Shown here piece by piece: positions 2,608 to 32,663 of a DNA stretch of 50,164 nt. A program made the translations under genes and the position numbers. Within the stretch, counting starts at the first letter, position 1. Each line of letters opens with the position of its first letter. Under the pieces are notes generated by a model. It saw only the letters and a program-made list of their open reading frames with translations, did no database searches and was not told where the DNA came from. Location: IMG/VR virus record IMGVR_UViG_3300031669_000043, positions 1-50,164 of that record; one strand, given 5' to 3'. This DNA comes from a virus.

Positions 2608-4142
2608 TCGAGCTTCGGCAATATCAGCAGGACAGCATCGACGCGCTGCGTGAGGGCATACGCGCAGGCCACAAGCGGCAAATCCTCTGTTCTCCGACTG
2701 GCTCGGGGAAAACAGAAATTGCGATGGCGCTCAGCCAGGATGCGTTGAAGAAGGGAAGCAAGACAGCCTTCATCTGTGACAGAATTGCGATTTTGGATCA
2801 GACCTCTCAGCGGTTTGACTCCAATCAAATTCCACACGGAATAATCCAAAGCGGTCACTGGCGCTGGAGACCTTCTGAGCCGGCGCAGATTTGCTCTGCG
2901 CAAACATTAGCCAGGCGTGGCGTAATGGAAGGGCTTAAACTAATCATCGTTGACGAGTGCCATACGCTATACAAGTCCACCGTCAAGTTCATCGAAGCGC
3001 ATCCTGAGATTGTCACCATCGGACTATCGGCCTCGCCGTTTTCGAAAGGACTCGGGGCGCTCTATTCAAACATCGTGAACGTCACGACGACGAATAAGTT
3101 GATCGAGGAAAAATACCTTACCGGACTGCGGGTGTTCGCTGCAAAGGCAATCGACATGCGGGGCGCTAAACTGAAATTCGACGGGGAGTGGATGGACGCG
3201 GAGATTGAAAAACGCGGACTTGAAATCGTTGGCGACATAGTTCAGGAATGGGTCACAAAAACAGGGGAGATATTTGGTGGCCCGGTAAAGACAATTTTAT
3301 TCTCCGCGACCGTCGCGCACGGCGAGGAGCTGTGCAGGCAGTTTCAAGCGGCTGGATTCAATTTCCAGCAGGTAAGCTACAAGGACGGCAACGACGACTC
3401 GCGCAGGGTCTTGATTGAGGAATTCCGTCAGCCGGATTCCGAAATAATGGGGCTGGTATCTGTCGAGGCGCTGGCGAAGGGCTTTGACGTTCCCGACATT
3501 CGGTGTCTCGTCTCAGCGAAGCCCTATCGCAAAATCCTCTCCGGTCACATTCAGCAAATTGGCCGCGGAATGAGGATTTCGCCCGATAAGGAATTTTGCT
3601 TGCTGCTAGATCACTCTGGAAACTTTCTCCGGTTCTACGACGATACGATGAGTTTCTTTGAGCGCGGGCTTGAGGGGCTTGGCGAGGGGCATCTTGATTC
3701 AACCGCAAGACAGGAGCCGGAAGAAAAGCAAGTCCGAGAACTCGTCTGTGGCAATTGTCGCGCAGTTATTCCGCCTGGGTCATCGTCTTGCGCGGTGTGT
3801 GGTTTGGTAAAGCCGAAAAAGCAAAACGATACAGAAAGCCTCCCCGGAGAAATGGTCGAGCTTGAACTGAACTCTAAGGGAAAACCGCTTCCCGATTTTT
3901 TGCAGGACAAGGATCGCGTGTGGCGTCAAATCTGCCAACTGTCTCTTGATCGAAAAAGCGGTGACGAGATTGCGGCGGAACGATTTGCTAAAGCGCAGTA
4001 CATGAATATCTACGGAACATGGCCGCGTCACGCGATGAGAAACATCACGCCGGAAGAACCGAGCTTGCAGCTTCAATCGAAAATCAAGGCGAACCTGATT
4101 CGATATTTCAAGGGTAAGGCGAAACGCGAGGCGCAGGCATGA
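2604..4142 (+). CDS. superfamily 2 DEAD/DEAH-type helicase with zinc ribbon
   Basis: 512 residues. Walker A PTGSGKTE at 31-38, motif II DECH at 117-120, motif III SAS at 142-144, and motif VI QQIGRGMR at 317-324, which together define an SF2 helicase of the UvsW/RecG-like branch. After the helicase core, C382/C385 and C396/C399 form a four-cysteine zinc ribbon. ATP-driven remodelling of branched DNA or replication initiation is the usual role of phage members. The C-terminal ~110 residues are of unknown function. Coupled to both neighbours by four-base overlaps. Confidence 0.9.
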   Translation: MIELRQYQQDSIDALREGIRAGHKRQILCSPTGSGKTEIAMALSQDALKKGSKTAFICDRIAILDQTSQRFDSNQIPHGIIQSGHWRWRPSEPAQICSAQTLARRGVMEGLKLIIVDECHTLYKSTVKFIEAHPEIVTIGLSASPFSKGLGALYSNIVNVTTTNKLIEEKYLTGLRVFAAKAIDMRGAKLKFDGEWMDAEIEKRGLEIVGDIVQEWVTKTGEIFGGPVKTILFSATVAHGEELCRQFQAAGFNFQQVSYKDGNDDSRRVLIEEFRQPDSEIMGLVSVEALAKGFDVPDIRCLVSAKPYRKILSGHIQQIGRGMRISPDKEFCLLLDHSGNFLRFYDDTMSFFERGLEGLGEGHLDSTARQEPEEKQVRELVCGNCRAVIPPGSSSCAVCGLVKPKKQNDTESLPGEMVELELNSKGKPLPDFLQDKDRVWRQICQLSLDRKSGDEIAAERFAKAQYMNIYGTWPRHAMRNITPEEPSLQLQSKIKANLIRYFKGKAKREAQA

Positions 4143-4330
4143 GCCACAAGTTCGCCCTGCACAGTTTCCTAGCCGCTCCATATTACGGCAATTCGGAGTT
4201 TGAGCAACCTGATACCAAACCCGTTCGCGTGGTGCTCTATGAGCCTGTTGCGGCGCTCAGAAAGGAACTGCAGGCGGCGAACAAGCGGATTCAGGAATTG
4301 CAGGGTCCGAGAAAACCGAAGCGGGCTTGA
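4139..4330 (+). CDS. 63-residue protein, unknown
   Basis: Begins MSHKFALHSFLAAPYYGNSE and ends in a short basic coiled coil (KELQAANKRIQELQ). Its ATG overlaps the helicase stop (ATGA). No family recognised. The stop overlaps the -35 box of the next promoter, so this is the last gene of the first rightward transcription unit. Confidence 0.55.
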   Translation: MSHKFALHSFLAAPYYGNSEFEQPDTKPVRVVLYEPVAALRKELQAANKRIQELQGPRKPKRA

Positions 4331-4354
4331 CTTTTCATAATGAAAGCGTATTCT
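4327..4354 (+). promoter_or_regulatory. sigma70-type promoter
   Basis: TTGACT, a 16-base spacer and TATTCT, just at the end of the upstream gene. Predicted start near 4361. It would read into a ~420-base stretch with one weak ORF and then the ParB-like gene. Confidence 0.6.
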
Positions 4355-4375
4355 ACAAACAACAGAGCCCCGAGG

Positions 4376-4762
4376 ATGATTGGTCCCCGAGGCTCTAATC
4401 CTGTGTCGATCGTGACTCGGCCACAGAACAATGTAATCAGTCTAAATTGTTCCGTTCCTGCTGTCAATCCCCCCAGGCGCATAGCGGCGTTACAGCGCGT
4501 TGACGGAGCTACGTTACATCCGGGCATGGCAGGGGGCCTAATATCTGCCGGCGCTACACTGAACCCCGGCGCATTGGGCGGTAGGCTGGTTAACCGCTGC
4601 CCTCGTAAAACCCGCGCCTATGTGCAGAGTGCTTTCGAAAAGAGCATTCTGCGGATGGGCTTGCTGCCTTTCGCGGGACAAACGAACGAGAGTAACCGCC
4701 GGTACGCTGGCAACAGTTCCTGCTTAATTAGCACGAACGGGGTTCGGTATGGGGAGTGGTGA
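4376..4762 (+). CDS. possible 128-residue protein with an internal repeat, unknown
   Basis: This stretch between the promoter at 4327 and the ParB-like gene has one open frame. A point in favour is an internal peptide repeat, GATLHPGMAGGLIS followed directly by a second copy GATLNPGALGGRLV, whose DNA copies differ mostly at third codon positions. Against it, there is no proper Shine-Dalgarno (GAGG touches the ATG) and no recognised domain. The 5' part contains an imperfect hairpin (about 4365-4397) and an inverted repeat GAACAAT/ATTGTTC (4426-4432, 4446-4452). It could instead be a structured leader RNA. Confidence 0.38.
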   Translation: MIGPRGSNPVSIVTRPQNNVISLNCSVPAVNPPRRIAALQRVDGATLHPGMAGGLISAGATLNPGALGGRLVNRCPRKTRAYVQSAFEKSILRMGLLPFAGQTNESNRRYAGNSSCLISTNGVRYGEW

Positions 4763-4785
4763 AGTGTCAACTTTTGGAGGAATTT

Positions 4786-5589
4786 ATGCAACTCGAACTG
4801 ATTAGCGGAAATGTCAAACAAGCGATGGCCGGGGCTTCGTCGAGAGACCTGTGGCAAGTGCCTCTCGATAAACTGAACGTCATCGACGGATTCAACGTGC
4901 GCGTCGATCGCGCGGAGCACAAGGCGCATTTGCAAGGGCTCGTCGACTCGATCATGGCGAACGGCTTTTATCAGAACAAGCCGCTTTCCGGCTACGTCGC
5001 CCTGGAAGATGGCGAACAGGTGATCTACGTCACCGATGGTCATTGCCGCCTAGAAGCCGCTACCGAAGCGGTGCGGCTTGGTGCCGAAATCAAAGCCCTG
5101 CCGGTGGTGGTGAGCCCGAAAGGGACCAGCGTCGAGGATCTGACCGTCGGCCTCGTTACAAACAATTCCGGGCATCCTCTGACGCAGTACGAAATCGGCA
5201 TCGTCTGCAAAAGGCTCATCGGATTCGGATGGAATGAAAAAGAAATCGGGAAACGTCTCGGAATGCCGGCGAGCCGGGTGCGTGACTTGCTCGATTTGGT
5301 TGGCGCTCCCGCGTCGGTGCGCGATGCGGTTGCTGACGGGGCGGTTTCCGCTACCCAAGCGATTGCGACTATTAAAAAGCATGGCGAGAAGGCTGGCGAG
5401 GTATTGCGGGCGGGCGCGGCGAAGGCGAAGGCCAAGGGAAAGAAAAAAATAACACGCCGCCACATAGAGTCTGCGCTTACGCCGAGGGCGGTAATAAAAG
5501 CACTATTGGTTTGGTACGACGCCCCCGCCGGAACGAAAAAGGAACTTGAAAACATCGTCAAATTGGCGAGAGAGTCTATTGCGCGATGA
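4786..5589 (+). CDS. ParB/Spo0J-like nuclease-domain protein
   Basis: 267 residues. A ParB N-terminal domain is shown by DGHCRLEA at 84-91 (the DGHRR-type motif, here with Cys) preceded by the usual PLSGYV strand, followed by a helix-turn-helix region around 145-185 (KEIGKRLGMPASRVRDLL). Such proteins in phages are not always partition factors; several act as regulators or DNA-binding nucleases. The start is set by GGAGG six bases before the ATG; a longer frame upstream lacks this. The C-terminus has a lysine-rich linker. No ParA is visible nearby, so partition is unlikely. Confidence 0.82.
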   Translation: MQLELISGNVKQAMAGASSRDLWQVPLDKLNVIDGFNVRVDRAEHKAHLQGLVDSIMANGFYQNKPLSGYVALEDGEQVIYVTDGHCRLEAATEAVRLGAEIKALPVVVSPKGTSVEDLTVGLVTNNSGHPLTQYEIGIVCKRLIGFGWNEKEIGKRLGMPASRVRDLLDLVGAPASVRDAVADGAVSATQAIATIKKHGEKAGEVLRAGAAKAKAKGKKKITRRHIESALTPRAVIKALLVWYDAPAGTKKELENIVKLARESIAR

Positions 5590-5897
5590 ATCCTTGTAGG
5601 GTATGCGGTAAGCTATTTGACGCATCCTGCTTTTCGTGCAGAGCGAGAATGGGCATGAATGGGGGTGAATTATCCAAAAATTTAGTCGCAAAATTATTTA
5701 AACTGCAAGGCGGTCAATGCGCCTGCGGATGCGGAGGCGATTTAGGGGAGGACTACCATCTGGATCATCGTATGCCGTTGGCGCTTGGTGGTTCCAATAC
5801 TGACGGGAATATGCAGTTGTTGCGGAAACGGTGCAATCTTAGGAAGGGGGCAAAACACCCTATTAAATTCATGCAAGAGAATGGGTTTTTGCTGTGA
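5586..5897 (+). CDS. HNH endonuclease, copy 1 of 3 paralogues
   Basis: 103 residues. An N-terminal zinc knuckle (CRVCG...CFSC) is followed by an HNH domain with YHLDH at 57-61, a GGSNTDGNMQLL strand and HPIKFMQENGFLL at the C-terminus. The closing block is almost the same in the genes at 12501 and 23628. HNH enzymes of this kind are usually freestanding homing endonucleases. One cysteine of the second CxxC pair is arginine here (LRKRCN against LLCPPCN), so the zinc site may be weakened. ATGA overlap with the ParB-like stop. AT-richer than its neighbours. Confidence 0.82.
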   Translation: MNPCRVCGKLFDASCFSCRARMGMNGGELSKNLVAKLFKLQGGQCACGCGGDLGEDYHLDHRMPLALGGSNTDGNMQLLRKRCNLRKGAKHPIKFMQENGFLL

Positions 5898-6055
5898 AAA
5901 ATCCTGAAATCTGGACCGACAGCGACGGCACGAAATACCGCCTCATCAATCCTGAGATCGTGAGCTACGCGCAAAAGCCGGTGAAGATCAAAGGGCGATT
6001 GGTGGAACAGCCCAATGCGGAATTTACCATCGTGACAGCGGAGAAGGTGGAGTGA
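5894..6055 (+). CDS. 53-residue protein, unknown
   Basis: GTG start overlapping the HNH stop (GTGA), reading VKNPEIWTDSDGTKYRLINP and onwards. Its stop overlaps the GTG of the methyltransferase. Soluble, mixed charge, likely a small beta-rich protein. No family recognised. Confidence 0.55.
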   Translation: MKNPEIWTDSDGTKYRLINPEIVSYAQKPVKIKGRLVEQPNAEFTIVTAEKVE

Positions 6056-7755
6056 GCGTGCAGATCATTCGCGGCGACTGCCTCGACGTGCTGAAAACGC
6101 TGCCGGATGCGAGCGTGGATTCCTGCGTAACCGACCCGCCCTATGGCCTAAAATTCATGGGCAAACTGTGGGATCACGGAATCCCTGCAGCGCCGTATTG
6201 GGTCGAGGTGCTGCGTGTCCTGAAACCCGGAGCGCACTTGCTCGCCTTTGGCGGAACGCGCACCTATCACCGCCTAGCCTGCGCGATTGAAGATGCGGGC
6301 TTTGAGATCCGCGATCAAATCGGCTATGCGTTCGGTTCTGGTTTCCCGAAAAGTCATAATCTCGATCGTCATCGGGGTGCGCTGTTTTGTGGATGTGGAG
6401 ACAATCACCATGAGAAGCCTGGGCCTGTCGCTGGAGCAAATGAAACTGCGAAAAAAAGAGCAACACCTGAAAGTAAAGAGGAAGCCAAACACGGAATGCG
6501 ATCACTGTGGGACGAAAATATATCGGCGCCCGAATGTGCTCCGCAAGAACGCGACGAAGTGCTGCAGCCATACCTGTCAGAACCGGCTATTGGGAAATGC
6601 ACACCTGCACACGCCAGCAGTGGTAGCGAAGCGCGCCAAGGCGTTTCTGGGAGACAAGAATCCAGCGTGGAAGGGCGGAGTAATTCAGCGGCATCGGCAC
6701 GGGAACTATGTACAGGTCCGGTATGTGAGAGCGCCAGAATGGGCACGGCTGATGGCGAGGAAGGACGGCTATGTGATGGAGCATCGGCTTGTGATGGCGA
6801 ACCGGATAGGCCGGACTCTGCTGCGCATGGAGGTGGTTCACCACGACGATCATGCGCCGCTGAACAACGCGACGACGAACCTGGAGTTGTGGCCGGACAA
6901 TCGGAGCCACAAACTCTGGGAGCATGGCCGAATTGCGGAAGGTGCGGCCTGCCGATTATTCCATCTGGGCTAGGCACCGCCCTCAAGCCGGCATGGGAGC
7001 CCATCGTTATGGCGCGCAAGCCGCTGGTGGGGACTGTTGCGGCGAACGTCGAGCGATTTGGAACCGGCGGGCTGAATATTGAAGAGTGCAGAGTTGGAAC
7101 TGCAGTCGAGACATGGCCCATTTCGCGCAGCTACGCGCCGGGCCAGATGCAGCCGGGGCATTCAGGTGAAACGCAAGGCACCGGTGATGCGCCCCCCGGC
7201 CGCTGGCCGGCGAACCTGATTCACGACGGCAGCGAGGAAGTGCTGGCATGTTTTCCTGCCAATGCCGGCGCAGCGGCCCCGGTCCACAAGCGCAACGGCG
7301 ACAAGTTCCGCAACACGTTCGGCGCATTCGCTGGAGACGTCGACGAGGCAGGCAGCACATTCCAAGGCGACAGTGGAAGCGCAGCGCGGTTCTTCTACTG
7401 CGCAAAAGCCTCCCGTCAAGACAGAAACGAGGGCCTGCGAGGGCGCGACAAGAAGCTGCTGAATTGGTCTAGCGGCACGCAATCACCCGGCACATTCCAA
7501 GCGCCCGGCACCGACAGAACCAGCGAGAACCATCACCCGACCGTCAAGCCGACCGACCTGATGCGCTACCTGTGCAGGCTGGTGACGCCGAAGGGCGGGA
7601 CGGTGCTTGATCCATTTATGGGCAGCGGCAGCACCGGGCGCGGCGCGATACGCGAGGGCTTCGGCTTCATTGGAATCGAGATCGACGCGGAGTATTGCGA
7701 GATCGCGTGCCTTCGCATTCATGCCGATGCGCCACTGTTTGCCGAGGTCGCATGA
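6052..7755 (+). CDS. site-specific DNA methyltransferase (N6-A/N4-C type) with a ~200-residue insert
   Basis: 567 residues. Motif IV DPPY at 28-31 and the SAM-binding motif DPFMGSGSTG at 520-529, in beta-class order, define a DNA amino-methyltransferase. The segment GLGTALKPAWEPIVMARKP is typical of phage members. Between about residues 105 and 305 there is a low-complexity insert rich in R, E, S, A and G that does not look like a folded domain. It coincides with a complete HNH gene in the +1 frame. The methyltransferase frame stays open through the whole insert, so a single full-length protein can be made. Probable role: protecting phage DNA from restriction. Confidence 0.85.
   Translation: MSVQIIRGDCLDVLKTLPDASVDSCVTDPPYGLKFMGKLWDHGIPAAPYWVEVLRVLKPGAHLLAFGGTRTYHRLACAIEDAGFEIRDQIGYAFGSGFPKSHNLDRHRGALFCGCGDNHHEKPGPVAGANETAKKRATPESKEEAKHGMRSLWDENISAPECAPQERDEVLQPYLSEPAIGKCTPAHASSGSEARQGVSGRQESSVEGRSNSAASARELCTGPVCESARMGTADGEEGRLCDGASACDGEPDRPDSAAHGGGSPRRSCAAEQRDDEPGVVAGQSEPQTLGAWPNCGRCGLPIIPSGLGTALKPAWEPIVMARKPLVGTVAANVERFGTGGLNIEECRVGTAVETWPISRSYAPGQMQPGHSGETQGTGDAPPGRWPANLIHDGSEEVLACFPANAGAAAPVHKRNGDKFRNTFGAFAGDVDEAGSTFQGDSGSAARFFYCAKASRQDRNEGLRGRDKKLLNWSSGTQSPGTFQAPGTDRTSENHHPTVKPTDLMRYLCRLVTPKGGTVLDPFMGSGSTGRGAIREGFGFIGIEIDAEYCEIACLRIHADAPLFAEVA
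6410..6973 (+). CDS. HNH endonuclease nested in the methyltransferase gene
   Basis: 187 residues in the +1 frame inside the methyltransferase. It has its own ribosome-binding site (GGAG nine bases before the ATG). Features: a zinc finger C-x2-C...C-x3-C (CDHCG near 30, CCSHTC near 51), the NPAWKGG motif common in phage HNH proteins, YVMEHRLVM, and the HNH core VVHHDDHAPLNNATTNLEL...H. Its TAG stop falls in the codons that give GLGTAL in the methyltransferase, where related enzymes usually have GWGTAL. It probably acts as a homing endonuclease that carries the surrounding DNA into phages lacking it. Confidence 0.8.
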   Translation: MRSLGLSLEQMKLRKKEQHLKVKRKPNTECDHCGTKIYRRPNVLRKNATKCCSHTCQNRLLGNAHLHTPAVVAKRAKAFLGDKNPAWKGGVIQRHRHGNYVQVRYVRAPEWARLMARKDGYVMEHRLVMANRIGRTLLRMEVVHHDDHAPLNNATTNLELWPDNRSHKLWEHGRIAEGAACRLFHLG

Positions 7756-9192: not shown

Positions 9193-10023
9193 ATGTACCT
9201 GATCGCAGAGTGCGGAATAAACGGAAATGGCAGCGAGGAACTTGCGAAGCTGATGATTCGGCACGCGCACGAAGCTGGCTTTGACGCTGTGAAATTCCAA
9301 AAGCGCAGCCTTGAGCAATGCTATACCAAGGAATTTCTCGATTCTCCGCGCGAGTCACCGTGGGGAAAAACGCAGCGGGCGCAGAAGGAGGCGCTTGAGT
9401 TCTCGCGGTTGCAGTACACCCTGATCGACGCTTACTGCAAGGAATTGGGTGTGGCGTGGTCGGCGTCAGCCTGGGACTTGGATTCTCAGGAATTTATTCA
9501 CTCGTTCAATGTTCCGTTCAACAAAGTGGCGTCACCAATGCTCGGTAACTGGCCGCTATTGCGGAAGATCGCCAGCGAGCGCAAGCGCACCTTCATTTCT
9601 ACCGGCATGAGCACGCTGGCCGAAATAGACGAAGTGGTTGCGCTGTTCCGCAAGGCCGATTGCCCGTTCGAGTTGATGCACTGCAATTCGACCTATCCGA
9701 TGCCGGAAGATCAGGCGAACCTGAACTGCATTCCGATGCTGCGCGATCGGTACGGGTGTGAGGTCGGCTACTCGGGCCATGAAACCTGCCTCACGAAAGT
9801 CTGCGTTGCTGCGGTTGCTCTCGGGGCGAGTTCAATCGAGCGCCATATCACGTTGGAGCGGGCGATGTACGGGAGCGACCAAGCCGCCTCAATCGAAACA
9901 CACCATCTGCGGGATTTCGTCGAAACGGTGCGGGCGATTCCTGCGATTCTCGGAACGGGGATCAAGGACGTTACCGAAAGCGAATGGCCGGCGCGGAAGA
10001 AACTGCGGGTAGAAGTCGCATGA
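9193..10023 (+). CDS. NeuB-like nonulosonic acid synthase without SAF domain
   Basis: 276 residues of the NeuB TIM-barrel: LIAECGINGNGSEELAKLM at the N-terminus, DAVKFQKR, ISTGMSTLAEID, the metal-ligand segment MHCNSTYPMPEDQANL, GYSGHE (usually GYSDHT) and GASSIERHITL. NeuB enzymes condense phosphoenolpyruvate with an N-acetyl sugar to make sialic, legionaminic or pseudaminic acid. The protein stops right after the barrel (ARKKLR), where normal enzymes of ~340 residues continue into a C-terminal SAF (antifreeze-like) lid. GGGAGG lies just upstream of the ATG. First gene of the sugar cassette. Confidence 0.88.
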   Translation: MYLIAECGINGNGSEELAKLMIRHAHEAGFDAVKFQKRSLEQCYTKEFLDSPRESPWGKTQRAQKEALEFSRLQYTLIDAYCKELGVAWSASAWDLDSQEFIHSFNVPFNKVASPMLGNWPLLRKIASERKRTFISTGMSTLAEIDEVVALFRKADCPFELMHCNSTYPMPEDQANLNCIPMLRDRYGCEVGYSGHETCLTKVCVAAVALGASSIERHITLERAMYGSDQAASIETHHLRDFVETVRAIPAILGTGIKDVTESEWPARKKLRVEVA

Positions 10024-10718
10024 ACGTCGTTTGCATAATCGGCGCTCGTTCTGGCTCCAAGGGCGTTCCGGGGAAAAACATTCGCCACTTGTCCGGTCAT
10101 CCCCTGCTCGCTTACTCAATCCGTTCGGCCCAGGAAGCGGGCATTGCCGAAATCGTCGTATCGACCGATTCAATCGAATACGCCAGCATCGCCAAAAAGT
10201 ACGGTGCGCGTGCGGTCTTGAGACCAGATGCGATTTCTCAGGACAATTCGACCGATTTCCAGTACATCGCTCACGCGATTTCGACGTTTGACCCTCCTGC
10301 GGATTTGATCGTCCACCTTCGGCCGACTACACCTCTGCGAGACCCGCTGTTGATCCAAGGGGCGGTCAATGATCTGAAAGCGTGCGAGTCTGCAACGGCT
10401 TTGCGGTCCGTGGAGGAAATGAGCGAGTCTGCGTGGAAGTGCTTCGAGATATTTTCCGGTAAGCTGATCGGATTGGGCGGGGAGGCTTCGCTGGATCAAT
10501 TCAACGATCCGCGTATGGAATTCAAAAAGACATTCAGGCCGAACGGCTACGTCGATGTGATTCGCACGTCAATGATTTACAAGGGGCTTCTTCACGGCGA
10601 TGCGGTTCTCCCGTACATCACGCCAGTCGTTACCGAAATCGACACTGAGGAAGATTTTGAGTTTGTGCAGTATCAGGCCCGCAAGCATCCTGAGTTGGTG
10701 CGGGCGTTTTTCCCATGA
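10020..10718 (+). CDS. NeuA-like CMP-nonulosonate cytidylyltransferase
   Basis: 232 residues. The nucleotide-binding loop reads IGARSGSKGVPGKNIRHL near the N-terminus, followed by VVSTDS and LRPTTPLRDP, the set of motifs of CMP-N-acetylneuraminate synthetases and close relatives. The enzyme would activate the acid made by the NeuB-like protein with CTP. Length is normal for the family. ATGA overlap with the NeuB-like gene. Exact sugar specificity cannot be read from the sequence. Confidence 0.88.
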   Translation: MNVVCIIGARSGSKGVPGKNIRHLSGHPLLAYSIRSAQEAGIAEIVVSTDSIEYASIAKKYGARAVLRPDAISQDNSTDFQYIAHAISTFDPPADLIVHLRPTTPLRDPLLIQGAVNDLKACESATALRSVEEMSESAWKCFEIFSGKLIGLGGEASLDQFNDPRMEFKKTFRPNGYVDVIRTSMIYKGLLHGDAVLPYITPVVTEIDTEEDFEFVQYQARKHPELVRAFFP

Positions 10719-12067
10719 GCGCATATTCTTTTTCGCGTGAGTCTCGGGCGGTGCCGTTTGTGAACACCGAGCACAGACACATTCACACCGAAATTCCGGC
10801 GCCTGGGGCGAAGGAAATCCTTGAGCGTTTGGATGTAGTCGAGTCCAGATCAATGCACGGCCAATTGCCGATTGTGTGGGATCATGCTTTAGATCACTAC
10901 GTAGCGGACAATTGCGGAAATATGTTTCTGGATTTCACGTCCGGTATTTTCGTTGCGAACGTCGGGCATTCAAATCTGGCGGTCGTGGAAGCGGTGCGGG
11001 AAGCAATGAATATCGAGCCGCTTCATTCCTACGCATACGCTACCGAAATCCGCGCCAAGTATCTCGAACGTCTAACGCAATGGTCCGGTTTCGAAAAAGC
11101 CTTCCTGCTATCGTCTGGAACTGAGGCGACTGAAGCGGCCTTGAAGCTCATTCGGATGCGCGGCCAAAAGCTCGGAAAACGGAGACCGGGAATTCTCTGC
11201 ATCGACGGAAACTGGCACGGTCGGACGATGGGCGCGCAGTTGATGAGTTCCAATGCCGCACAAAAGGCGTGGATCGGTTTCGACGACCCGAGCATTACCC
11301 ATTTTCCGTTTCCTACGCAGGAAATTCTGACTATCCGCCAGCAGACAGCGGCCGAGTTTTTCCGCGATTGGTTGCCGCGGATTCTGGCGGCGAAGGGGAT
11401 TGATGCGCGCAGGGACTTCTGCGGAGTGATGCTTGAGGCTTTCCAAGGGTGGTCGGCGTGGTTCTATCCTCCCGATTTCGTCCAAGAGATTGAAAAGTGG
11501 TGCCGGGAAAACAGTCTCCTGCTGTGCTTTGACGAAATGCAGGCAGGATTCGCCAGGACAGGCCGGAAGTTCGGTTATGAGCACTACGCGGTCAAGCCTG
11601 ACCTGATCTGCGTCGGCAAGGGCATGGGCGGCGGATTGCCCCTTTCCGGCGTTCTGGGCAGGGCTGAGATTCTCGATCTGCCGGAAGTCGGTAATATGTC
11701 GAGCACGCACGGCGGGAATCCGCTTTGCTGCGCGGCCGGTCTTGCGGTGATTGACGAAATCGAGCGGCTGGATTTGGTGAACGAAACGGCGAGAAAGGAA
11801 ATGATCCTTTTCCCGGCGTTGGCGAATTTGCGCCTGAGTTGCTGGAGCCGAGTAACCGGCTTCTGGGGGCATGGCTTGATCGCAGCGGTGCATTTCGATT
11901 CTGCGGAACTGGCAAGCCGTGTTGCCGAGCGGTGTATGGAGAAGGGCGTATTGGTGGTGCATACGGGGCGCGAGAGTATCAAACTCGGGCCTCCGCTTAC
12001 AATTCCAGATGCGGCGTTGATCGAGGGCGTCGAGGTCATCGCTGAGGCGATAAAGGAACTGGCGTGA
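10715..12067 (+). CDS. class III PLP-dependent aminotransferase
   Basis: 450 residues with normal family features: SSGTEATEAALKL at 133-145 (phosphate-binding), FDEMQAGFARTG from 272 (PLP aspartate D273) and the Schiff-base lysine in CVGKGMGGGLPLSG (K302). Glutamate-1-semialdehyde and acetylornithine aminotransferases share this fold. In a NeuB/NeuA cassette it most likely aminates a sugar or a side-chain precursor, but the substrate is unknown. Coupled by ATGA to the NeuA-like gene. Confidence 0.87.
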   Translation: MSAYSFSRESRAVPFVNTEHRHIHTEIPAPGAKEILERLDVVESRSMHGQLPIVWDHALDHYVADNCGNMFLDFTSGIFVANVGHSNLAVVEAVREAMNIEPLHSYAYATEIRAKYLERLTQWSGFEKAFLLSSGTEATEAALKLIRMRGQKLGKRRPGILCIDGNWHGRTMGAQLMSSNAAQKAWIGFDDPSITHFPFPTQEILTIRQQTAAEFFRDWLPRILAAKGIDARRDFCGVMLEAFQGWSAWFYPPDFVQEIEKWCRENSLLLCFDEMQAGFARTGRKFGYEHYAVKPDLICVGKGMGGGLPLSGVLGRAEILDLPEVGNMSSTHGGNPLCCAAGLAVIDEIERLDLVNETARKEMILFPALANLRLSCWSRVTGFWGHGLIAAVHFDSAELASRVAERCMEKGVLVVHTGRESIKLGPPLTIPDAALIEGVEVIAEAIKELA

Positions 12068-12504
12068 TGCTCGGATTGCGTCATGTCGGCATTGTCGTAT
12101 CTGACCTGAATGAAGCTATCGGGTTCTATTGCAGCTTGCTCGGTTTTCAGCACGTTCAAAAAGCGTATGAGTTCGGACATTCTCTCGATTCGATGCTTGC
12201 GCTTGATGGAGCGAAAGTAACCACGGTAAAACTGATTGCGCCGAACGGCGGCATGATCGAGTTGTTGAAATTCGATGAGCCAGGGAGCTCTCCGGTAGGC
12301 CGCGCGATTTTCGACCTTGGCATTTCACACATTGCGATCACGGTGCAAAACTTGGACAAGGAATATCAGCGGTTGAAACTGTGTGGCGTGGAGTTCGTTT
12401 CCGCGCCTGTGCAATCTGGGGCGGCGCGGGTTGCGTTCGCTATCGACCCGGAGGGGAATCGAGTCGAGCTGGTTCAGGATGTTACTTTTCCAAGGGCGGC
12501 GTGA
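12067..12504 (+). CDS. VOC-superfamily metalloprotein (glyoxalase/epimerase-like)
   Basis: 145 residues in two beta-alpha-beta-beta-beta modules. The expected metal ligands are in place: H6 (LRHVGIVV), E65 (MIELLKF), H88 (SHIAITV) and E134 (NRVELVQ). Members include glyoxalase I, methylmalonyl-CoA epimerase and dioxygenases; an epimerase or isomerase step in sugar synthesis is plausible but unproven. The stop of the aminotransferase overlaps the ATG (TGATG); a GTG three bases earlier is an alternative start. Confidence 0.83.
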   Translation: MLGLRHVGIVVSDLNEAIGFYCSLLGFQHVQKAYEFGHSLDSMLALDGAKVTTVKLIAPNGGMIELLKFDEPGSSPVGRAIFDLGISHIAITVQNLDKEYQRLKLCGVEFVSAPVQSGAARVAFAIDPEGNRVELVQDVTFPRAA

Positions 12505-13202
12505 AAGTTTGTAAGAAATGTGGCGGGACTGATTTTGTGCCTAGCGGGTATTGCAGACCGTGTGCAAAAGTGCGTGTTGCTAAATGGCAAAAAGAGCATC
12601 CAGAGAGAGGTATAGCGGCGTCTAAAAAGTGGCGCGAAGCGCATCGAGAGAAATCGAGAGCAAACACAAAAAAATGGCAAGAAAAAAATAAAGAATATCG
12701 CGCTGAGTATGGGCGCAAGTGGAGAGAGGAACATCAGGAAGAACATAAAGCTGCAAAAAAGAAGTGGCGTGAAAAGAACAAAGATAGACACGAGCAATAT
12801 CAAATAGCGTGGGAAACAGCGAATCGCAAGCGTCGTAGTGCCGGCCGTAAGGAATGGCGAGAACAGAACAGGGAGAGAGATCGTAAAAATTTAATTGAGT
12901 GGGCAAAAAAGTATCCCGATAGAGTTCGCATCAAAGCGCAGAACAGAAGGGCGAAAAAGAAAAGTAATGGCGGCAGTCTGTCGAGAGATATAGTCTCAAA
13001 ATTACTGCAATTGCAAAAAGAGAAATGCGCGATCTGCCGCGTTCCGCTTAATGGGGAGTACCATCTAGACCACATATTGCCTTTAATCCTCAAGGGCAGA
13101 AATGAAGATAAAAATATGCAATTACTTTGTCCTCCATGTAACCTGTCTAAGTCGAGCAAGCATCCTATAGAATTCATGCAATCGAGAGGGTTTCTATGTT
13201 GA
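12501..13202 (+). CDS. HNH endonuclease, copy 2 of 3 paralogues
   Basis: 233 residues, GTG start overlapping the VOC stop. An N-terminal zinc knuckle (CKKCGGTDF...CRPC) is followed by several short repeats of the KKWREKN/RKWREEH type, a basic helical array likely to bind DNA, and then a full HNH domain: KCAICR, YHLDH, GRNEDKNMQLLCPPCN and HPIEFMQSRGFLC. It lies between two sugar-cassette genes and overlaps the next start by seven bases, so it looks like an insertion that kept translational coupling. AT-rich compared with its neighbours. Confidence 0.85.
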   Translation: MKVCKKCGGTDFVPSGYCRPCAKVRVAKWQKEHPERGIAASKKWREAHREKSRANTKKWQEKNKEYRAEYGRKWREEHQEEHKAAKKKWREKNKDRHEQYQIAWETANRKRRSAGRKEWREQNRERDRKNLIEWAKKYPDRVRIKAQNRRAKKKSNGGSLSRDIVSKLLQLQKEKCAICRVPLNGEYHLDHILPLILKGRNEDKNMQLLCPPCNLSKSSKHPIEFMQSRGFLC

Positions 13203-13999
13203 GCGGCTTATCCCAAATCAACGTTGAGTTGACTTCCCGTTGTTCTAAGAAAACGGCCTGTTTTATGTGCGGTCATCAATCGGCGGTCGTCAATCCTCTG
13301 TTGAATTTTGGCGATATGGATTTTGCTCTTGTCGAGTCAATAGAGCGGCAGATTGGCGCAGGGGTTATCGTGAGTCTGCACAAAGATGGAGACCCAGTAG
13401 ATTATGAGAGATTGGGAGACGTGCTCCGCGTGTTAAAAAAGCACCCTATTTCTGTGGTCACGCATGGCGAACGTCTGAACGAAAAAGCGGCAGAAATTAT
13501 AGGTCTGTGCACCACGGTAACTTGCAGCGTGATACCGAACGACCCGGACAGGGAGATACAGTTAGAGTCGCTGCGCGGATTCCTCGCCAAGAAAGGCGCT
13601 CGGGCGCCGATGGTGCAGTTGAAATTTGTCGGGATCGTACAGAATCCTGAACCTTATCTAAGCCTAGGATTACCCGTTATAGGGCGTGCCCTACATTCAA
13701 AAAAAGGCAATTGGAACTATTACAAAATCGACCCGATCATTCCAGAGGTCCGCGTGTGCCTCGATTTCCTCGGCCGGCCGACGGTCGATTGGAAGGGCAA
13801 TCTCTACAATTGCAATCGGTTGGACGTAAAAGGCGAAGGACTGCTCGGGAACTTGAACGAAAGTACGCTAGAGGCGCTATGGAACGGTCCCGAGCGTGCC
13901 AGGATGCTTCGGGCGCACTTGGCGGGGCGGCGGCAGGATGCTAACCCGTTGTGCGCTTCCTGCCAATTCTACGGGGTCAGCACGCCATCGGGCGGTTAG
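13196..13999 (+). CDS. radical SAM/SPASM-domain protein with unusual cluster motif
   Basis: 267 residues. The N-terminus INVELTSRCSKKTACFMCGH supplies three cysteines (C16, C22, C25), the position of the radical-SAM [4Fe-4S] motif, but spaced C-x5-C-x2-C and not C-x3-C-x2-C. A SPASM-like tail has C188, C206 and C-x2-C at 253-256 around WKGNLYNCNRL and EALWNGPERARM. I remember similar proteins in phages and bacterial surface-polysaccharide clusters. Likely a radical-based modification of a sugar or peptide; substrate unknown. Last gene of the cassette. Confidence 0.8.
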   Translation: MLSGLSQINVELTSRCSKKTACFMCGHQSAVVNPLLNFGDMDFALVESIERQIGAGVIVSLHKDGDPVDYERLGDVLRVLKKHPISVVTHGERLNEKAAEIIGLCTTVTCSVIPNDPDREIQLESLRGFLAKKGARAPMVQLKFVGIVQNPEPYLSLGLPVIGRALHSKKGNWNYYKIDPIIPEVRVCLDFLGRPTVDWKGNLYNCNRLDVKGEGLLGNLNESTLEALWNGPERARMLRAHLAGRRQDANPLCASCQFYGVSTPSGG

Positions 14000-14616: not shown

Positions 14617-15345
14617 TTACTCCTTGGGTTTTACTACCATTAAGGCAAGTGCCATTGCTGCGCGGTACTGTTTTTCGTAGGCGCTTGATTTGTGCGTTTT
14701 GGTAACAGCGGCAGACAATTCCGATTCAGAACCCGAAAAGCATCCGGTCGTGAACCGTATGCCGATTTTCGCGTCAGCGTGAACCGTCAGTTGATCCTTA
14801 CGCGAACCGATAGGGCCGACAAAGAAAAAGTCGGCATCGCCGGACACCCGCGCATTGCCGGACACCTGCGCACCGCCGGACACCCACGCATTGCCGGACA
14901 CCTGCGCAGTGCCGGACACCTGCGCACCGCCGGACACCCACGCATTGCCGGACACCCACGCACCGCCGGACACCCACGCATTGCCGGACACCTGCGCATT
15001 GCCGGACACCCACGCATTGCCGGACACCCACGCATCGCCGGACACCTGCGCATCGCCGGACACCCGCGCATTGCCGGACACCTGCGCATTGCCGGACACC
15101 CACGCATTGCCGGACACCCGCGCACCGCCGGACACCCACGCATTGCCGGACACCCACGCATCGCCGGACACCCACGCATTGCCGGACACCCACGCATCGC
15201 CGGACACCCGCGAAAGATTCTTGTCGCTCTCGATCCATCCGCCAAGTTCTCCTTTTGCGATAAGACCGAACGAAACGAGCGCGCGAATGCGTTTTAACGT
15301 AACTCCGCAAAATACTTTTGTGTCTCCGGTAAATTCATATTTCAT
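14617..15345 (-). CDS. hexapeptide-repeat beta-helix protein, phage family
   Basis: 242 residues. A conserved head (MKYEFTGDTKVFCGVTLKRI and GELGGWIESDKNLS) is followed by 21 tandem hexapeptides of the form VSG-(N/D/G)-A-(W/R/Q) at residues 47-172, and a tail with VGPIGSRKDQLTVHAD and GCFSG. The repeats would stack as a left-handed or similar beta-helix. I know this architecture from many phages, without a defined function. CAGGAG upstream of the ATG. Repeat number may vary because each DNA unit is 18 bp and keeps the frame. Confidence 0.78.
   Translation of the reverse strand: MKYEFTGDTKVFCGVTLKRIRALVSFGLIAKGELGGWIESDKNLSRVSGDAWVSGNAWVSGDAWVSGNAWVSGGARVSGNAWVSGNAQVSGNARVSGDAQVSGDAWVSGNAWVSGNAQVSGNAWVSGGAWVSGNAWVSGGAQVSGTAQVSGNAWVSGGAQVSGNARVSGDADFFFVGPIGSRKDQLTVHADAKIGIRFTTGCFSGSESELSAAVTKTHKSSAYEKQYRAAMALALMVVKPKE
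14830..15207 (-). repeat. 21 tandem 18-bp repeats coding for hexapeptides
   Basis: Each unit is close to GTGTCCGGCAATGCGTGG on the minus strand, with variation mainly at the codons for residues 4 and 6. Because the unit is a multiple of three, all other frames stay open too, which makes spurious long ORFs on both strands here. Expansion or contraction by recombination or slippage would change the length of the helix without frameshift. Confidence 0.92.
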
Positions 15346-17724: not shown

Positions 17725-18423
17725 ATGAGACCTCTGGCAATAGACCTCTACTGCGGCCTTGGCGGCTGGACCGACGGCTTGCTGGCCGAGGGCTACGATG
17801 TGGTCGGCTTCGACATTGAACGGCACGACTACGGAACCGGCGGATACCCGGCGCAGCTCGTCCTGCAAGACGCCCTGACGCTGCACGGTAGGCAGTTCAA
17901 GGATGCCGCACTGATCGTCGCCAGCCCTCCCTGCCAGGAATACAGCTACATGGCGATGCCGTGGTCGAAGGCGAAGGCCAAAGAGAGAGACTTGCTTGAA
18001 GGCCGCGACGATCCGAAGCGCCTGACCGCCCTGTTCGATGCCTGCTTCCGCATACAGCGCGAGGCCATCGAAGCCGCCGGCCACTTCATCCCACTGGTAG
18101 TCGAGAACGTGCGCGGGGCGCAGAAGTGGGTCGGGCGCAGCAAAGCTAATGCTGGCCCGTATCACCTGTGGGGAGATATTCCGGCCTTGTTGCCTTCGAT
18201 GGAAGCCGCGAAACAGCCGGGTCATTGGTTCAAGGATTCAGGAACGGCGAGTGGGAGCGCCAGGTTCGGCTCCAAGAGCAAGGAACGCAAGGCGTGGTCT
18301 GCCGCCATAGCCAAGATACCGCTGCCGCTGGCGCGATATATAGCAAAGGTATATTATCCATTGCATGAAACCAAACATAATCAAGCCAGGCGACAAGTTC
18401 AACAGGTGGACGGTAATCCGTGA
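17725..18423 (+). CDS. DNA cytosine-C5 methyltransferase
   Basis: 232 residues. Motif I LYCGLGG (8-14), catalytic SPPCQEYS with C70, and VVENVRG with the ENV motif at 126-128. The protein is much shorter than full C5 methyltransferases and has little room for a target-recognition domain, as in other short phage members. The last ~20 residues after the usual end (LARYIAKVYYP) run into the next gene in another frame and look acquired. No ribosome-binding site: translation is probably leaderless. Role: methylating phage DNA against host restriction. Confidence 0.85.
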   Translation: MRPLAIDLYCGLGGWTDGLLAEGYDVVGFDIERHDYGTGGYPAQLVLQDALTLHGRQFKDAALIVASPPCQEYSYMAMPWSKAKAKERDLLEGRDDPKRLTALFDACFRIQREAIEAAGHFIPLVVENVRGAQKWVGRSKANAGPYHLWGDIPALLPSMEAAKQPGHWFKDSGTASGSARFGSKSKERKAWSAAIAKIPLPLARYIAKVYYPLHETKHNQARRQVQQVDGNP

Positions 18424-29613: not shown

Positions 29614-30633
29614 ATGCCAGTTTTGAACACGGGTTTAGTCCCCGGCGGAAGTGTCGGTGCCGAGCTAACCGCCGCAACACGCAGAGCAGTCGTCCCGGCC
29701 CTGTTCGTCCAGATCTACAAAGCCACTCCGATGCTGAACCTGCTTTTTGGCACAGCCCAAAGAGCGAAAGGCGGCATGTCCCAAGTCACCGTTCCGGTGC
29801 AGGGATCGTCGTTCGTGAACTTCGCATGGACGGACTACTCGGGCGGCTTCCCTCAACCAGCGGTGCAGCCTGGAATGCAGAACGCGGAATTCAACCTCTG
29901 CGTTGGCGTGGTTCCGATCTCCTTTATGGGGATGGAAGCCCTGATTCAATCCTCGGAAGCCATCGTACCGCTGATGCGGGCTAGAATGGCCGATGCGAAG
30001 ACTGTCGCTGTCCAGGCCATGTCCACAGCGCTTTTCACCAACTCCTCGAACCTGCCGAACGCTTCTCAGATCATCAATGGTCTGCCGCAGGCTTTCGATG
30101 ACGGGACCAACGTCAACAGTTACGGCGGAATTTCCAGGACTGCCAGCCCGTTCTGGAAGTCAACGCTGGTTACCGCAGCCGGCGCAGTCAATACCCGTTC
30201 CGCGATGCTCTCCTACCTCGTCCAAACTACTGCCCTGAACGGCGGCGAAGCTCCTGACTTCTGCGTGATGAGCCCTTCGGACTGGACGACTCTGATGCAG
30301 GACTTCCTGACGCTGGAACGGTTCAACACCACCCCGGCCTCGAAGTACGGCAAGGACGAATCGGTGAACGCCGGCTTCCGTGGTCTGATGCTCGGTGACA
30401 CCCCGTTCTTCATGGACCCGTTCTGCCCGAAAGGGACGGCGTACATGCTGAACACGAAGTATTTCGCCGCCTACGTCTCGGAAGACGCTCCGTTCGCCTT
30501 CTCTGGGTTCTACTCGGCAATCCCGAATCTGCAAATCGCAAATGTGGGGGTCGTGATCATAGCTATGCAAACGGTCTGTGCCAAGCCCGTTAGTGGGATG
30601 CAAATTTCTGGAATAACAGGCGGCGCGTTCTAG
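29614..30633 (+). CDS. major capsid protein
   Basis: 339 residues. Assigned by position after a scaffold-like gene, size, strong ribosome-binding site (AAGGAG) and low-charge, Gly/Ala/Thr-rich sequence. Segments such as RAVVPALFVQIYKATPMLNL, QVTVPVQGSS and a central DFCVMSPSDWTTLMQDFLTL (peripheral-domain-like) fit an HK97-fold capsid. It would form the shell. I cannot name the subfamily. Confidence 0.78.
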   Translation: MPVLNTGLVPGGSVGAELTAATRRAVVPALFVQIYKATPMLNLLFGTAQRAKGGMSQVTVPVQGSSFVNFAWTDYSGGFPQPAVQPGMQNAEFNLCVGVVPISFMGMEALIQSSEAIVPLMRARMADAKTVAVQAMSTALFTNSSNLPNASQIINGLPQAFDDGTNVNSYGGISRTASPFWKSTLVTAAGAVNTRSAMLSYLVQTTALNGGEAPDFCVMSPSDWTTLMQDFLTLERFNTTPASKYGKDESVNAGFRGLMLGDTPFFMDPFCPKGTAYMLNTKYFAAYVSEDAPFAFSGFYSAIPNLQIANVGVVIIAMQTVCAKPVSGMQISGITGGAF

Positions 30634-30666: not shown

Positions 30667-31794
30667 ATGATGTTAGGCGGAAGCGGAATCGGCCTCGGTC
30701 TGAGGGGGAAAGTAACCAACGCACTGACGTTGCCGGCGGGGGAGACTTACATCGTCCCTGCGGGGAACTACGCCGTCAATCTTGGTCCATACACTGAGCT
30801 TCAATATCTCGATCCTGTTACCGGGATTTGGAGAACTCAGTTATGGCCGGGGCAAGACGGGCAATTCGCAATCGACGGCGCGAACTACCGCCTTGCCAAT
30901 CTCACCGGCTGCCCCGTAGCCGCTGTCATCACGACCGCGCTTGCGACTGGCGCAGCGACCGGCATCGGCGTAACTGCAACGCTCATGACCGTCACGGCTT
31001 CGTCCGGTTCTTCGACCTGGTGCCCGATTGTCGGCGGTGCGCTTTCGCTGACCTGCGTTACCGGCGTCACCGGATCGAGCGTCGGTGCTGGCTATCTTTT
31101 CCCGCCAACAGCGATCATTTCGGCGCCGCCTCCCGGCGGTCTTCAGGCGACGGCTCACGTTACCGGAATTCCGACGACCGGCGCGTTGCTTGCCGCTCAA
31201 GTCATCATCGACAACCAGGGCGCGGGTTATCCTGTAGCCTCGACCGGGATTTCGACGGCGACCATCACCTTCGTCAACGACCCTCGGGACACCGCAGGCA
31301 GCGGCGCCACTGTTCGCCTTGGCGCGACCGGAACCGGGCAGTTGACGGCTCTGTATCCGCTGACCCAAGGCGTTCCGCTGACGGGGGCTCCGACGCTGGC
31401 GTTCGGCGTGGGCGCGGCTGGCGCTACGTCGATCATGAACTTCACCGTGACTGCGATTGCCTCTGGCACGACGAACACGCAGACCTACGCCACGGGCACA
31501 ACCCCAATCGTTACCACCATCGGGAACATCGTTTCGGCTACACCTGCCTGGACGAATCCGATTCACGAAAAAGCCTCCACCTTCCCGCGGCCGGCGCGGA
31601 TTCAGGCGGGTCTGGCTTCGAACGTCGTTACCTCAACGGGCGCCGTTGTCGAAGATGGCGGGTTCGGGATTCAACAAGCCCCGAGCGCGATTGTCATTGG
31701 GCAACTGCTGGCGATTACCGGCGTGACGCTGGGGACCGCTCCGCTGCTTACGATTGGCGGCGTGACGGACACAAGTTGGCTGCAGCCGATCTAA
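30667..31794 (+). CDS. 375-residue Gly/Thr/Ala-rich virion protein (decoration or head fibre candidate)
   Basis: N-terminal part: LTLPAGETYIVPAGNYAVNL and ELQYLDPVTGIWRTQLWPG. The remainder is low-charge beta-rich sequence with several AGYPV/GAGY-like turns, similar in style to the insert in the gene at 32668 (GNYAGTPTVVITGPGSGA). It follows the major capsid gene with a good AAGGAG, so a capsid decoration, vertex or head-fibre protein is likely. Surface exposure also makes it a possible glycosylation substrate for the next gene. Confidence 0.6.
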   Translation: MMLGGSGIGLGLRGKVTNALTLPAGETYIVPAGNYAVNLGPYTELQYLDPVTGIWRTQLWPGQDGQFAIDGANYRLANLTGCPVAAVITTALATGAATGIGVTATLMTVTASSGSSTWCPIVGGALSLTCVTGVTGSSVGAGYLFPPTAIISAPPPGGLQATAHVTGIPTTGALLAAQVIIDNQGAGYPVASTGISTATITFVNDPRDTAGSGATVRLGATGTGQLTALYPLTQGVPLTGAPTLAFGVGAAGATSIMNFTVTAIASGTTNTQTYATGTTPIVTTIGNIVSATPAWTNPIHEKASTFPRPARIQAGLASNVVTSTGAVVEDGGFGIQQAPSAIVIGQLLAITGVTLGTAPLLTIGGVTDTSWLQPI

Positions 31795-31808: not shown

Positions 31809-32663
31809 ATGGAACAGCCTCAAGGGTATGTCGATACGGTGCTCGATGATGGTCGTGTTACGCCTCTGACGATTCAGACGTACACGCTCATCGAGCAAGG
31901 GCATCTAGCCAAAAACATCGTCGAGAACCTTGGGAGGGACATTCCAAGGTTCGTCAATCGTGTCGGGCTGGGTCAGATCAGGCACGCCCCTCTTGCGATA
32001 GTCTGCGCGGGGCCGACTCTCGTTGAAACAATCGACCGGGTACGCGACTTCGAAAACGTACTCGTCTGCGGATCTGCTCACGATTTCGTTGTTCGTCAAG
32101 GCATCATCCCGAACTACGCCGTGGTGTGCGACGGCGGCAAAGATGACAAGGGCAATCTGTCACTGCCTCAGAAAGATACGACCTACCTCATCGCCTCTCA
32201 GTGCGATCCGAGTTTGTTCGATCACCTGTCTGACTACCATGTGGAAATGTGGCACTACCGCGGCCAAGCTGCGCCCACAATAGAGGAAGAAGGCAGGGTG
32301 CTTAACGGGGAGCCGTCCTTGGCGTGGGGGTCAAGCGTCGGCATCGTTTCGATATCGCTTGCGATGCACCTTGGATTTCAGCACATCCATTTCTTCGGTC
32401 TTGACTCGTCCTACGGAGACCACGGGATGAGCCATCACTGCTGCAAAATAGCAGGCAGCATGGAGTACAAGAAAGTGCCAGTCAAAGTCGGAGAGAAAGT
32501 TTTTATTTCCGACTTGGCATTGATGGAACAGACCAATCAATTTTTCCGTTTTATTGAAACGCAGCATCAATTCATCCACGGCACTATTCACGGCAACGGT
32601 TTAATCGCTGAAATGGCGAGACAAGGAGAGCCTGGGCTAGAGAAGTACATCAGCCTCGCATGA
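31809..32663 (+). CDS. DUF115/MptE-like protein (Maf glycosyltransferase-type fold)
   Basis: 284 residues. Diagnostic segments: LAIVCAGPTLVETIDRV (nucleotide-binding GPSL-like loop), VLVCGSAHDFVVRQGIIPNY, VVCDGG, SSVGIVSISLAMHLGFQHIH and FFGLDSSYGDHG. This is the DUF115 core found in archaeal MptE (a pterin pyrophosphokinase) and in Maf flagellin glycosyltransferases, which transfer sialic-acid-like sugars to protein. Located between a surface-protein gene and the head connector. With NeuB- and NeuA-like genes in the same genome, protein glycosylation of the virion is an attractive inference. Confidence 0.75.
   Translation: MEQPQGYVDTVLDDGRVTPLTIQTYTLIEQGHLAKNIVENLGRDIPRFVNRVGLGQIRHAPLAIVCAGPTLVETIDRVRDFENVLVCGSAHDFVVRQGIIPNYAVVCDGGKDDKGNLSLPQKDTTYLIASQCDPSLFDHLSDYHVEMWHYRGQAAPTIEEEGRVLNGEPSLAWGSSVGIVSISLAMHLGFQHIHFFGLDSSYGDHGMSHHCCKIAGSMEYKKVPVKVGEKVFISDLALMEQTNQFFRFIETQHQFIHGTIHGNGLIAEMARQGEPGLEKYISLA

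Follow-up and report, generated by a model that had tools for sequence, protein, structure and literature searches.

Results

The window analysed here is the full 50,164-base length of a virus contig (IMG/VR record IMGVR_UViG_3300031669_000043; G+C 55%). On its plus strand, at 9193-13999, lie six coupled genes that include a putative sugar-acid synthase and its activating enzyme, and 18 kb away, in the capsid operon, lies a gene for a Maf-like putative transferase. A sequence-only reading had listed the six genes and overlooked the transferase. Translation together with Pfam, PHROGs and NCBIfam confirmed every listed assignment. The cassette begins with a NeuB-type synthase dependent on phosphoenolpyruvate (PEP) (9193..10023; 276 residues; Pfam NeuB, 1.5e-66), followed by a NeuA-type synthetase of cytidine monophosphate (CMP)-sugar acids (10020..10718; CTP_transf_3, 2e-21), a class III aminotransferase dependent on pyridoxal phosphate (10715..12067; Aminotran_3, 1.7e-80), a VOC metalloprotein with a two-His/two-Glu site (12064..12504; Glyoxalase, 2.3e-18), an HNH endonuclease (12501..13202; HNH, 1.5e-7; PHROG endonuclease VII, 6.3e-20) and a radical S-adenosylmethionine (SAM) enzyme (13196..13999; SPASM, 7.7e-9). 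The last had been called a radical SAM/SPASM protein; the radical-SAM part of that name stands, and its four auxiliary cysteines mark it as the single-cluster 'twitch' type, a BtrN-like putative dehydrogenase.

The proposed coupling by overlapping stops and starts was also borne out, with 4-base overlaps at the in-frame starts 10020, 10715, 12064 and 12501 and a 7-base overlap between the HNH stop and the radical-SAM start. For NeuA the start at 10020 is likelier than that at 9984, given its ATGA overlap with the NeuB stop, and for HNH the start at 12501 is preferred because it yields the 4-base overlap. Given the E-values and the recurrence of the same genes together in other loci (30 examined), a chance grouping can be excluded. 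The HNH gene looks like a passenger in the cassette that stands outside the pathway; related viral cassettes have other passengers, a C5 methylase-like gene in L003 and HNH-like and N6 methylase-like genes in L023.

As had been read from the sequence, NeuB is a member of the sugar-acid synthases and NeuA of the CMP-sugar synthetases. NeuB scores 224.8 bits against PF03102 (cut-off 22.1), covering positions 1-241 of the 241 in the profile, and its PDB relatives are 6ncs, 8h2c, 1vli and 1xuu, the 290-residue chain of 6ncs being the best match. NeuA scores 77.2 bits against PF02348 (cut-off 22.6), and its best PDB relatives are the CMP-N-acetylneuraminate (CMP-Neu5Ac) synthetases 1qwj, 6ifd and 1eyr. 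Assignment to the neuraminic (Neu), legionaminic (Leg) or pseudaminic (Pse) acid pathways was rejected because the equivalog cut-offs are missed: NeuB reaches 231.7 bits against 399.65 for TIGR03569 (NeuB_NnaB, N-acetylneuraminate synthase) and 163 against 340.25 for TIGR03586 (pseudaminate synthase), and NeuA 104.5 against 205.7 for the NCBIfam PseF model (pseudaminate cytidylyltransferase). Pfam detects the NeuB domain alone in the synthase, which stops at residue 276, and no C-terminal SAF (antifreeze-like) domain. Cassette relatives likewise have about 276-300 residues and no SAF domain; the exceptions in length are N-terminally extended open reading frame (ORF) calls in L003, L017 and L027 and the contig-cut copy in L026. 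Longer NeuB-like ORFs (334 and 347 residues) occur elsewhere in L050 and L042, outside the module. His196 and His218, which we take to be the metal-ligand positions, are invariant in all 13 aligned sequences. With high confidence at the level of protein family, the product would be a CMP-activated sugar acid, in agreement with the sequence-only reading; the nine carbons given there are not supported, since the Neu and Pse cut-offs are missed and the SAF domain is absent. Among the 36 window ORFs scanned with Pfam there is no epimerase or dehydratase for making a Neu, Leg or Pse precursor, which agrees with the reported lack of hexosamine-precursor enzymes, and the host may supply this compound.

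In L027, the NeuB-like stretch is the second half of a 428-residue ORF (6340-7626) whose start resembles, by eye, a thiamine-diphosphate enzyme, representing either a fusion or an assembly join.

By both sequence and fold, the closest match of the radical-SAM enzyme is BtrN. A three-sequence profile (A1) found no PDB match, and a wider, 16-member profile (A8) was needed; it placed BtrN 4m7t best of 177,635 PDB sequences (4.5e-16), with NifB next (3.9e-7). With an AlphaFold model (predicted local distance difference test, pLDDT, 86.7; predicted template-modelling score, pTM, 0.85), Foldseek ranked BtrN first (1.6e-9) and SpeY second, and VIA gave BtrN 4m7t a Z of 20.9 over 223 aligned residues at 2.8 Å, against 17.7 for DesII, the next protein other than BtrN, and 13.2 for SpeY. 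Cys16, Cys22 and Cys25 and Cys188, Cys206, Cys253 and Cys256 are invariant in all 16 sequences, a set of three and a set of four that BtrN shares, its numbering being taken in part from the A8 alignment. The cassette enzyme differs from BtrN and SpeY in having CX5CX2C instead of CX3CX2C, a feature of the window protein and of five of the six phage proteins in the viral group, in being only 19% identical, and in sitting with NeuB and NeuA and not with cyclitol genes. In its own pathway the step of BtrN adjoins one carried out by an aminotransferase. BtrN is described as removing two electrons from DOIA to give amino-DOI and as binding an auxiliary cluster through four of its cysteines (PMC9012708). 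Because BtrN leads by both measures, we infer with moderate confidence that the radical-SAM enzyme oxidises an alcohol to a ketone, which the aminotransferase would then aminate; an alternative label, radical SAM/SPASM peptide maturase, was set aside for the same reason, no search for a precursor peptide having been made. The product is thus likely to be a CMP-activated 3-deoxy-2-ulosonic acid that is oxidised and aminated at one position.

The aminotransferase retains Asp273, Glu274 and Lys302, invariant in the five sequences of alignment A11, and is 54% identical to its L003 counterpart. In the VOC protein His7, Glu66, His89 and Glu135 are invariant (8/8), a two-His/two-Glu pattern that we take to be the metal-ligand set of the isomerase/lyase type. 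Gene content ties the two proteins together. We counted 30 loci anchored on the radical-SAM gene: the window, seven other viral records and 22 cellular loci. A class III aminotransferase is present in 12, and all 12 have the VOC gene; a class IV aminotransferase is present in nine, none of which has it. The remaining nine have neither class, and VOC occurs in three of them. Treating the 21 loci as independent, the perfect split between aminotransferase classes would have p = 3.4e-6, a value that is illustrative only because the loci are related. VOC is therefore the likely isomerase or epimerase partner of the class III aminotransferase, as judged from sequence and gene content. The sequence-only proposal that aminotransferase, VOC and radical-SAM enzymes alter a side chain is refined accordingly, into an oxidise-then-aminate pair with VOC tied to the class III version.

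The gene set sought by the sequence-only reading thus recurs well beyond this phage, and its spread among cells is what that reading had overlooked; its judgement that the combination is no pathway that can be named still holds, and the module is uncharacterised. Loci are labelled Omnitrophota, Lentisphaeria, Actinomycetota, Deltaproteobacteria and archaea. NeuB and NeuA are each present in 19 of the 22 cellular loci and an aminotransferase in 14; in the three without NeuB (L021, L041 and L048) the radical-SAM gene lies about 2 kb or less from a contig end. Scans with the radical-SAM alignment found nine cellular and seven viral loci, two of the latter in records already found. Genome searches by phylum with the radical-SAM protein (threshold 1e-40; counts include the anchor genome of each phylum) gave 9 of 193 (anchor G020, the genome of L016), 3 of 288 (G018), 6 of 297 (G019) and 1 of 194 (G021), and 13 places were fetched. 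All full-length genome hits score 1e-120 or better, the weaker scores coming only from broken or cut genes, and two such hits (G544 and G681) were left out of the fetched loci.

Among the viral relatives, the order in L003 is NeuB, NeuA, class III aminotransferase, a methylase-like gene, VOC, one further gene and radical SAM; in L002 the genes are those for NeuB, radical SAM, NeuA and an aminotransferase of class IV. When viral contigs were scanned with the class III aminotransferase, the scan returned the L003 record alone, and one with the single radical-SAM sequence returned no match. Against 50,697 phage records, neither the cassette by blastn nor the radical-SAM and Maf-like proteins gave a match, and NeuB matched three records at 29-40%. 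Scanning viral contigs with NeuB gave 12 loci, most of them distant and in glycan-type clusters of other phages. Duplicates were counted once (L024, L030, L037 and L070 are the L003 record, L029 is L002, and L066 is the record of L025, G014); L008 looks like L007 repeated, with the same hits, and was not double-counted.

Phage contigs L004 (7255-7899, 3.2e-27), L005 (6028-6621, 6.8e-20) and L007 (10003-10677, 1.1e-33) have GT29-family genes (Pfam) that lie no more than a few kb from NeuB genes without a SAF domain. The GT29 sialyltransferase family is best known from animals.

Trees were built from 30 radical-SAM and 26 NeuB rows, after leaving out those below 300 and 150 bits, respectively. 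Six viral radical-SAM sequences split from all cellular ones (support 100/99), and those of L027 and L028 fall inside the cellular sequences. In the NeuB tree, L002 and L003 join the window in one group (98/95) that adjoins a deltaproteobacterial copy (100/100 with it), and L025 and L026 are placed elsewhere. Because these placements differ, NeuB and radical SAM do not have a single shared history throughout.

The Maf-like gene (31809..32663, plus strand) encodes a putative transferase of the Maf/MptE-like family PF01973 (6.7e-17; 62.2 bits, cut-off 34.6). VIA placed the Maf glycosyltransferase 5mu5 of Magnetospirillum first for its model (Z 14.5, 210 residues aligned, 4.1 Å), with the CMP-using GT29 and GT42 sialyltransferases at Z 7.5-8.8. 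Foldseek ranked HPPK first (1e-5) and sialyltransferases at 7e-4 and weaker, and the sequence profile reached 5mu5 at an E-value of 0.033 only. With moderate confidence, the modelled fold together with the gene's position and linkage suggests a protein that could transfer a CMP-activated sugar to a virion protein.

Upstream on the same strand are the major capsid gene (29614..30633; PHROG major head protein, 1.1e-23; L003 copy 87% identical) and a gene for a Thr/Ser-rich protein of the structural block (30667..31794; serine plus threonine 21.1%, threonine 15.7%; L003 copy 70% identical). The order capsid protein, Thr-rich protein, Maf-like protein and a gene of the type at 32668 is common to the window, L003, L054 and L068. 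Protein 30667-31794 has no Pfam or PHROG match and, going by its position between the capsid and Maf-like genes, is a candidate acceptor. The intervening proteins have serine plus threonine contents of 16-22%, against a median of 11% and a 90th percentile of 18% over 138 ORFs. We rejected this richness as proof of an acceptor, because other structural- or tail-block proteins of the window reach 20-29% and homologues are found in sister phages lacking the Maf-like gene.

A PF01973 gene follows the major capsid gene in the window, L003, L054, L055-L060, L068 and L066/G014, the capsid genes of L055-L060 lying upstream of their Maf-like genes. G014 has a capsid protein of a different family, with a C-terminal piece matching phrog_334, then Thr/Ser-rich proteins and Maf, and elsewhere carries NeuB, a class IV aminotransferase and radical SAM. 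The putative Maf-like transferase in the capsid operon points to where the sugar probably ends up.

Two PF01973 domains lie downstream of the capsid genes in L055-L057 (two genes, at about 5.3-8.5 kb) and in L058 (one 1000-residue protein, 3760-6762), and among these four a NeuB match is confined to the L057 record. L023, which carries the cassette, and L068, which carries Maf and capsid genes, share the metagenome number 3300036760 and could come from a single phage.

Phages of the same capsid family show how the Maf-like gene and the cassette are distributed. Sixteen, the window included, cover the relevant position; four have the gene, all with capsid proteins at least 77% identical. It was undetected in the other 12 (L073-L076, L079, L080, L082, L083, L085, L087, L088 and L090; capsid 51-67%), which have the Thr-rich protein and then the 32668-type gene. 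L071 (capsid 84%) has a partial Maf gene at its contig end. NeuB or radical SAM was found in none of the seven Maf-less records of at least 30 kb (G1012, G1013, G1018, G1024, G1026, G1027 and G1029), searched with a radical-SAM profile that recovers nine of nine known genomes, and both were found in the two long Maf-bearing records, those of the window and L003.

Discussion

A terminase-like gene (21670-23532; PHROG, 4.8e-15), an SU10-portal-like gene (26296-27963; 9.7e-7, slightly under the Pfam cut-off), the capsid gene and recognised tail genes point to a podovirus-like phage. We give about an even chance to the idea that this phage supplies its own sugar for the glycosylation of a virion protein. 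NeuB would condense PEP with a host aldose to give a 3-deoxy-2-ulosonic acid, and NeuA would activate it with cytidine triphosphate (CTP), steps for which the family assignments argue strongly. Before or after this activation, the BtrN-like enzyme would, with moderate support, convert one hydroxyl to a carbonyl at which the aminotransferase places an amino group; more weakly, where the aminotransferase is of class III, VOC might correct a stereocentre. From its fold, position and linkage, the Maf-like protein would take the sugar off CMP and attach it to Ser/Thr of a protein associated with the capsid, perhaps protein 30667-31794 or the major capsid protein itself. Such a charged coat might affect adsorption, stability or recognition.

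Several observations weigh against virion glycosylation by this route. The main doubt over the window's own copy concerns NeuB, in which position 11 (9223-9225, codon GGA) is Gly and the 12 other members of alignment A9 and 10 other members of A2 have His, a change that could weaken the enzyme. The Maf-like protein (284 residues, PF01973 at 32-203) shows no further domain, against the three-domain architecture of Maf and the 666-residue chain of 5mu5; its model, built from three sequences, is of low confidence (pLDDT 58.7), and the VIA runners-up, SteA (Z 12.5) and MptE/HPPK (11.9), score nearly as high as 5mu5. Six of the 15 Maf scan hits have no recognised capsid gene nearby (L061-L065 and L067, with L062 cut at its contig end), and L027 and L028, which have NeuB and radical SAM, gave no PF01973 match. 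The comparison of sister phages is small and non-independent, and all of its records may be fragments; since the Maf-bearing sisters are close kin and several Maf-less ones look like near-copies, it does not amount to many independent events. Lastly, among 13 other Maf-bearing viral records (scan A7, apart from L003 and G014), several of them fragments, one has a NeuB match (G998, a 339-residue ORF of the longer kind) and none a radical-SAM match, so that Maf genes are often found in phages lacking the cassette.

Delivery of the activated acid to a surface glycan of the host (its capsule or lipopolysaccharide), for instance so as to exclude competing phages, is the strongest alternative, and we consider it unlikely. 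Judged by eye, several cellular copies of the module have glycosyltransferase- or flippase-like genes around them, the window's cassette stands apart from the capsid genes in a block of early-type genes, and the prophage genes epaA and epaB are described as altering the nonulosonic acid of the Acinetobacter capsule (PMC12053666). Yet Pfam finds no membrane glycosyltransferase, acetyltransferase or flippase among the 36 window ORFs, the one candidate transferase gene, the Maf-like one, belongs to the capsid block, and the L003 cassette lies inside the structural block.

It is also rather improbable that the Maf-like protein draws on a different donor, be it a CMP-sugar of the host or some other compound, and that the cassette has a purpose of its own, for instance making a small metabolite. 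This would fit the 12 of 13 other Maf-bearing records without NeuB and the inclusion of pterin diphosphokinases in PF01973, but Maf and cassette come and go together in this phage lineage, as far as the long records show, and G014, of another capsid family, has both. Decay of the cassette into non-functional cargo, to which the glycine in NeuB and the inserted HNH gene might point, is very unlikely: every frame is open and coupled, the remaining NeuB positions examined, like the other residues checked, are all retained, and the single group formed by six viral radical-SAM proteins points to long upkeep in phages. Least probable is that the cassette feeds DNA hypermodification, as the methylase-like genes within the L003 and L023 cassettes and two methylases in the window might suggest; we rejected this, as the embedded genes vary by phage, look like passengers and were not seen in the inspected cellular copies, which are glycan-type loci.

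With virion glycosylation as the preferred reading, the cassette can be set beside known systems. It resembles the Neu, Leg and Pse pathways (NeuB/NeuA, SpsE/SpsF and PseI/PseF) in joining a NeuB-type condensing enzyme and a NeuA-type CMP-transferring enzyme in one operon, but lacks hexosamine-precursor enzymes and the SAF domain and adds a radical-SAM dehydrogenase-like enzyme, a class III aminotransferase and VOC; the Leg pathway of Bacillus subtilis is described as taking six enzymes from uridine diphosphate (UDP)-sugars (PMC7439481). Maf enzymes are reported to attach CMP-nonulosonic acids to Ser/Thr and to accept other donors, such as Neu5Ac and KDO (PMC11339370). The window protein shares the PF01973 domain with the Maf flagellin glycosyltransferases (5mu5 and CbMaf) and has one of them as its top VIA match, but is single-domain, lacking the N- and C-terminal domains reported for those enzymes, and adjoins capsid genes, not flagellin. 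Glycans on major capsid proteins are reported for mycobacteriophages Che8 and Rita; that account concerns glycosyltransferases, and we found in it no phage-made CMP-sugar acid with a radical-SAM step (PMC11256854). The prophage pair epaA-epaB is likewise a phage-borne change to a nonulosonic acid, but is described as a CTP_transf_3/aldo-keto reductase fusion with a short-chain dehydrogenase, requiring host-made Pse and targeting the host capsule (PMC12053666).

Our literature search did not find radical-SAM chemistry in the synthesis of sialic-acid-like sugars. We propose tentatively, at somewhat below an even chance, a new CMP-ulosonic acid pathway in which a NeuB-made sugar acid gains an amino group through a radical-SAM dehydrogenase acting with an aminotransferase, either class III together with VOC or class IV. 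Bacteria, archaea and phages would share it, and in phages it would be tied to a Maf of the capsid operon that glycosylates the virion with the phage's own sugar. If true, it would bring radical-SAM chemistry into sialic-acid-like sugar synthesis, reveal a phage that produces an unusual acidic sugar and also decorates its own capsid with it, and assign a job to a module spread over bacteria, archaea and phages. The finding also gives a simple test of why only some phage lineages have capsid-adjacent Maf-like genes.

Other genes of the window deserve mention. HNH genes are dispersed through it (5586-5897, 12501-13202 and 23628-24278), and an HNH gene stands immediately ahead of the radical-SAM gene both here and in L026 (1466-2035). 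A short C5-methylase-like gene (17725-18423; Pfam, 9.6e-5) lies 3.7 kb past the cassette, and its homologue, 76% identical over 164 residues, lies inside the L003 cassette (11092-11994). A DnaJ-domain gene (24275-24895) and a SAM methyltransferase gene (24883-25815) precede the portal gene, the latter with a counterpart in the L003 record. On the minus strand, 14617-15345 encodes a YdcK-type beta-solenoid protein with many similar short repeats (Pfam, 1.5e-31).

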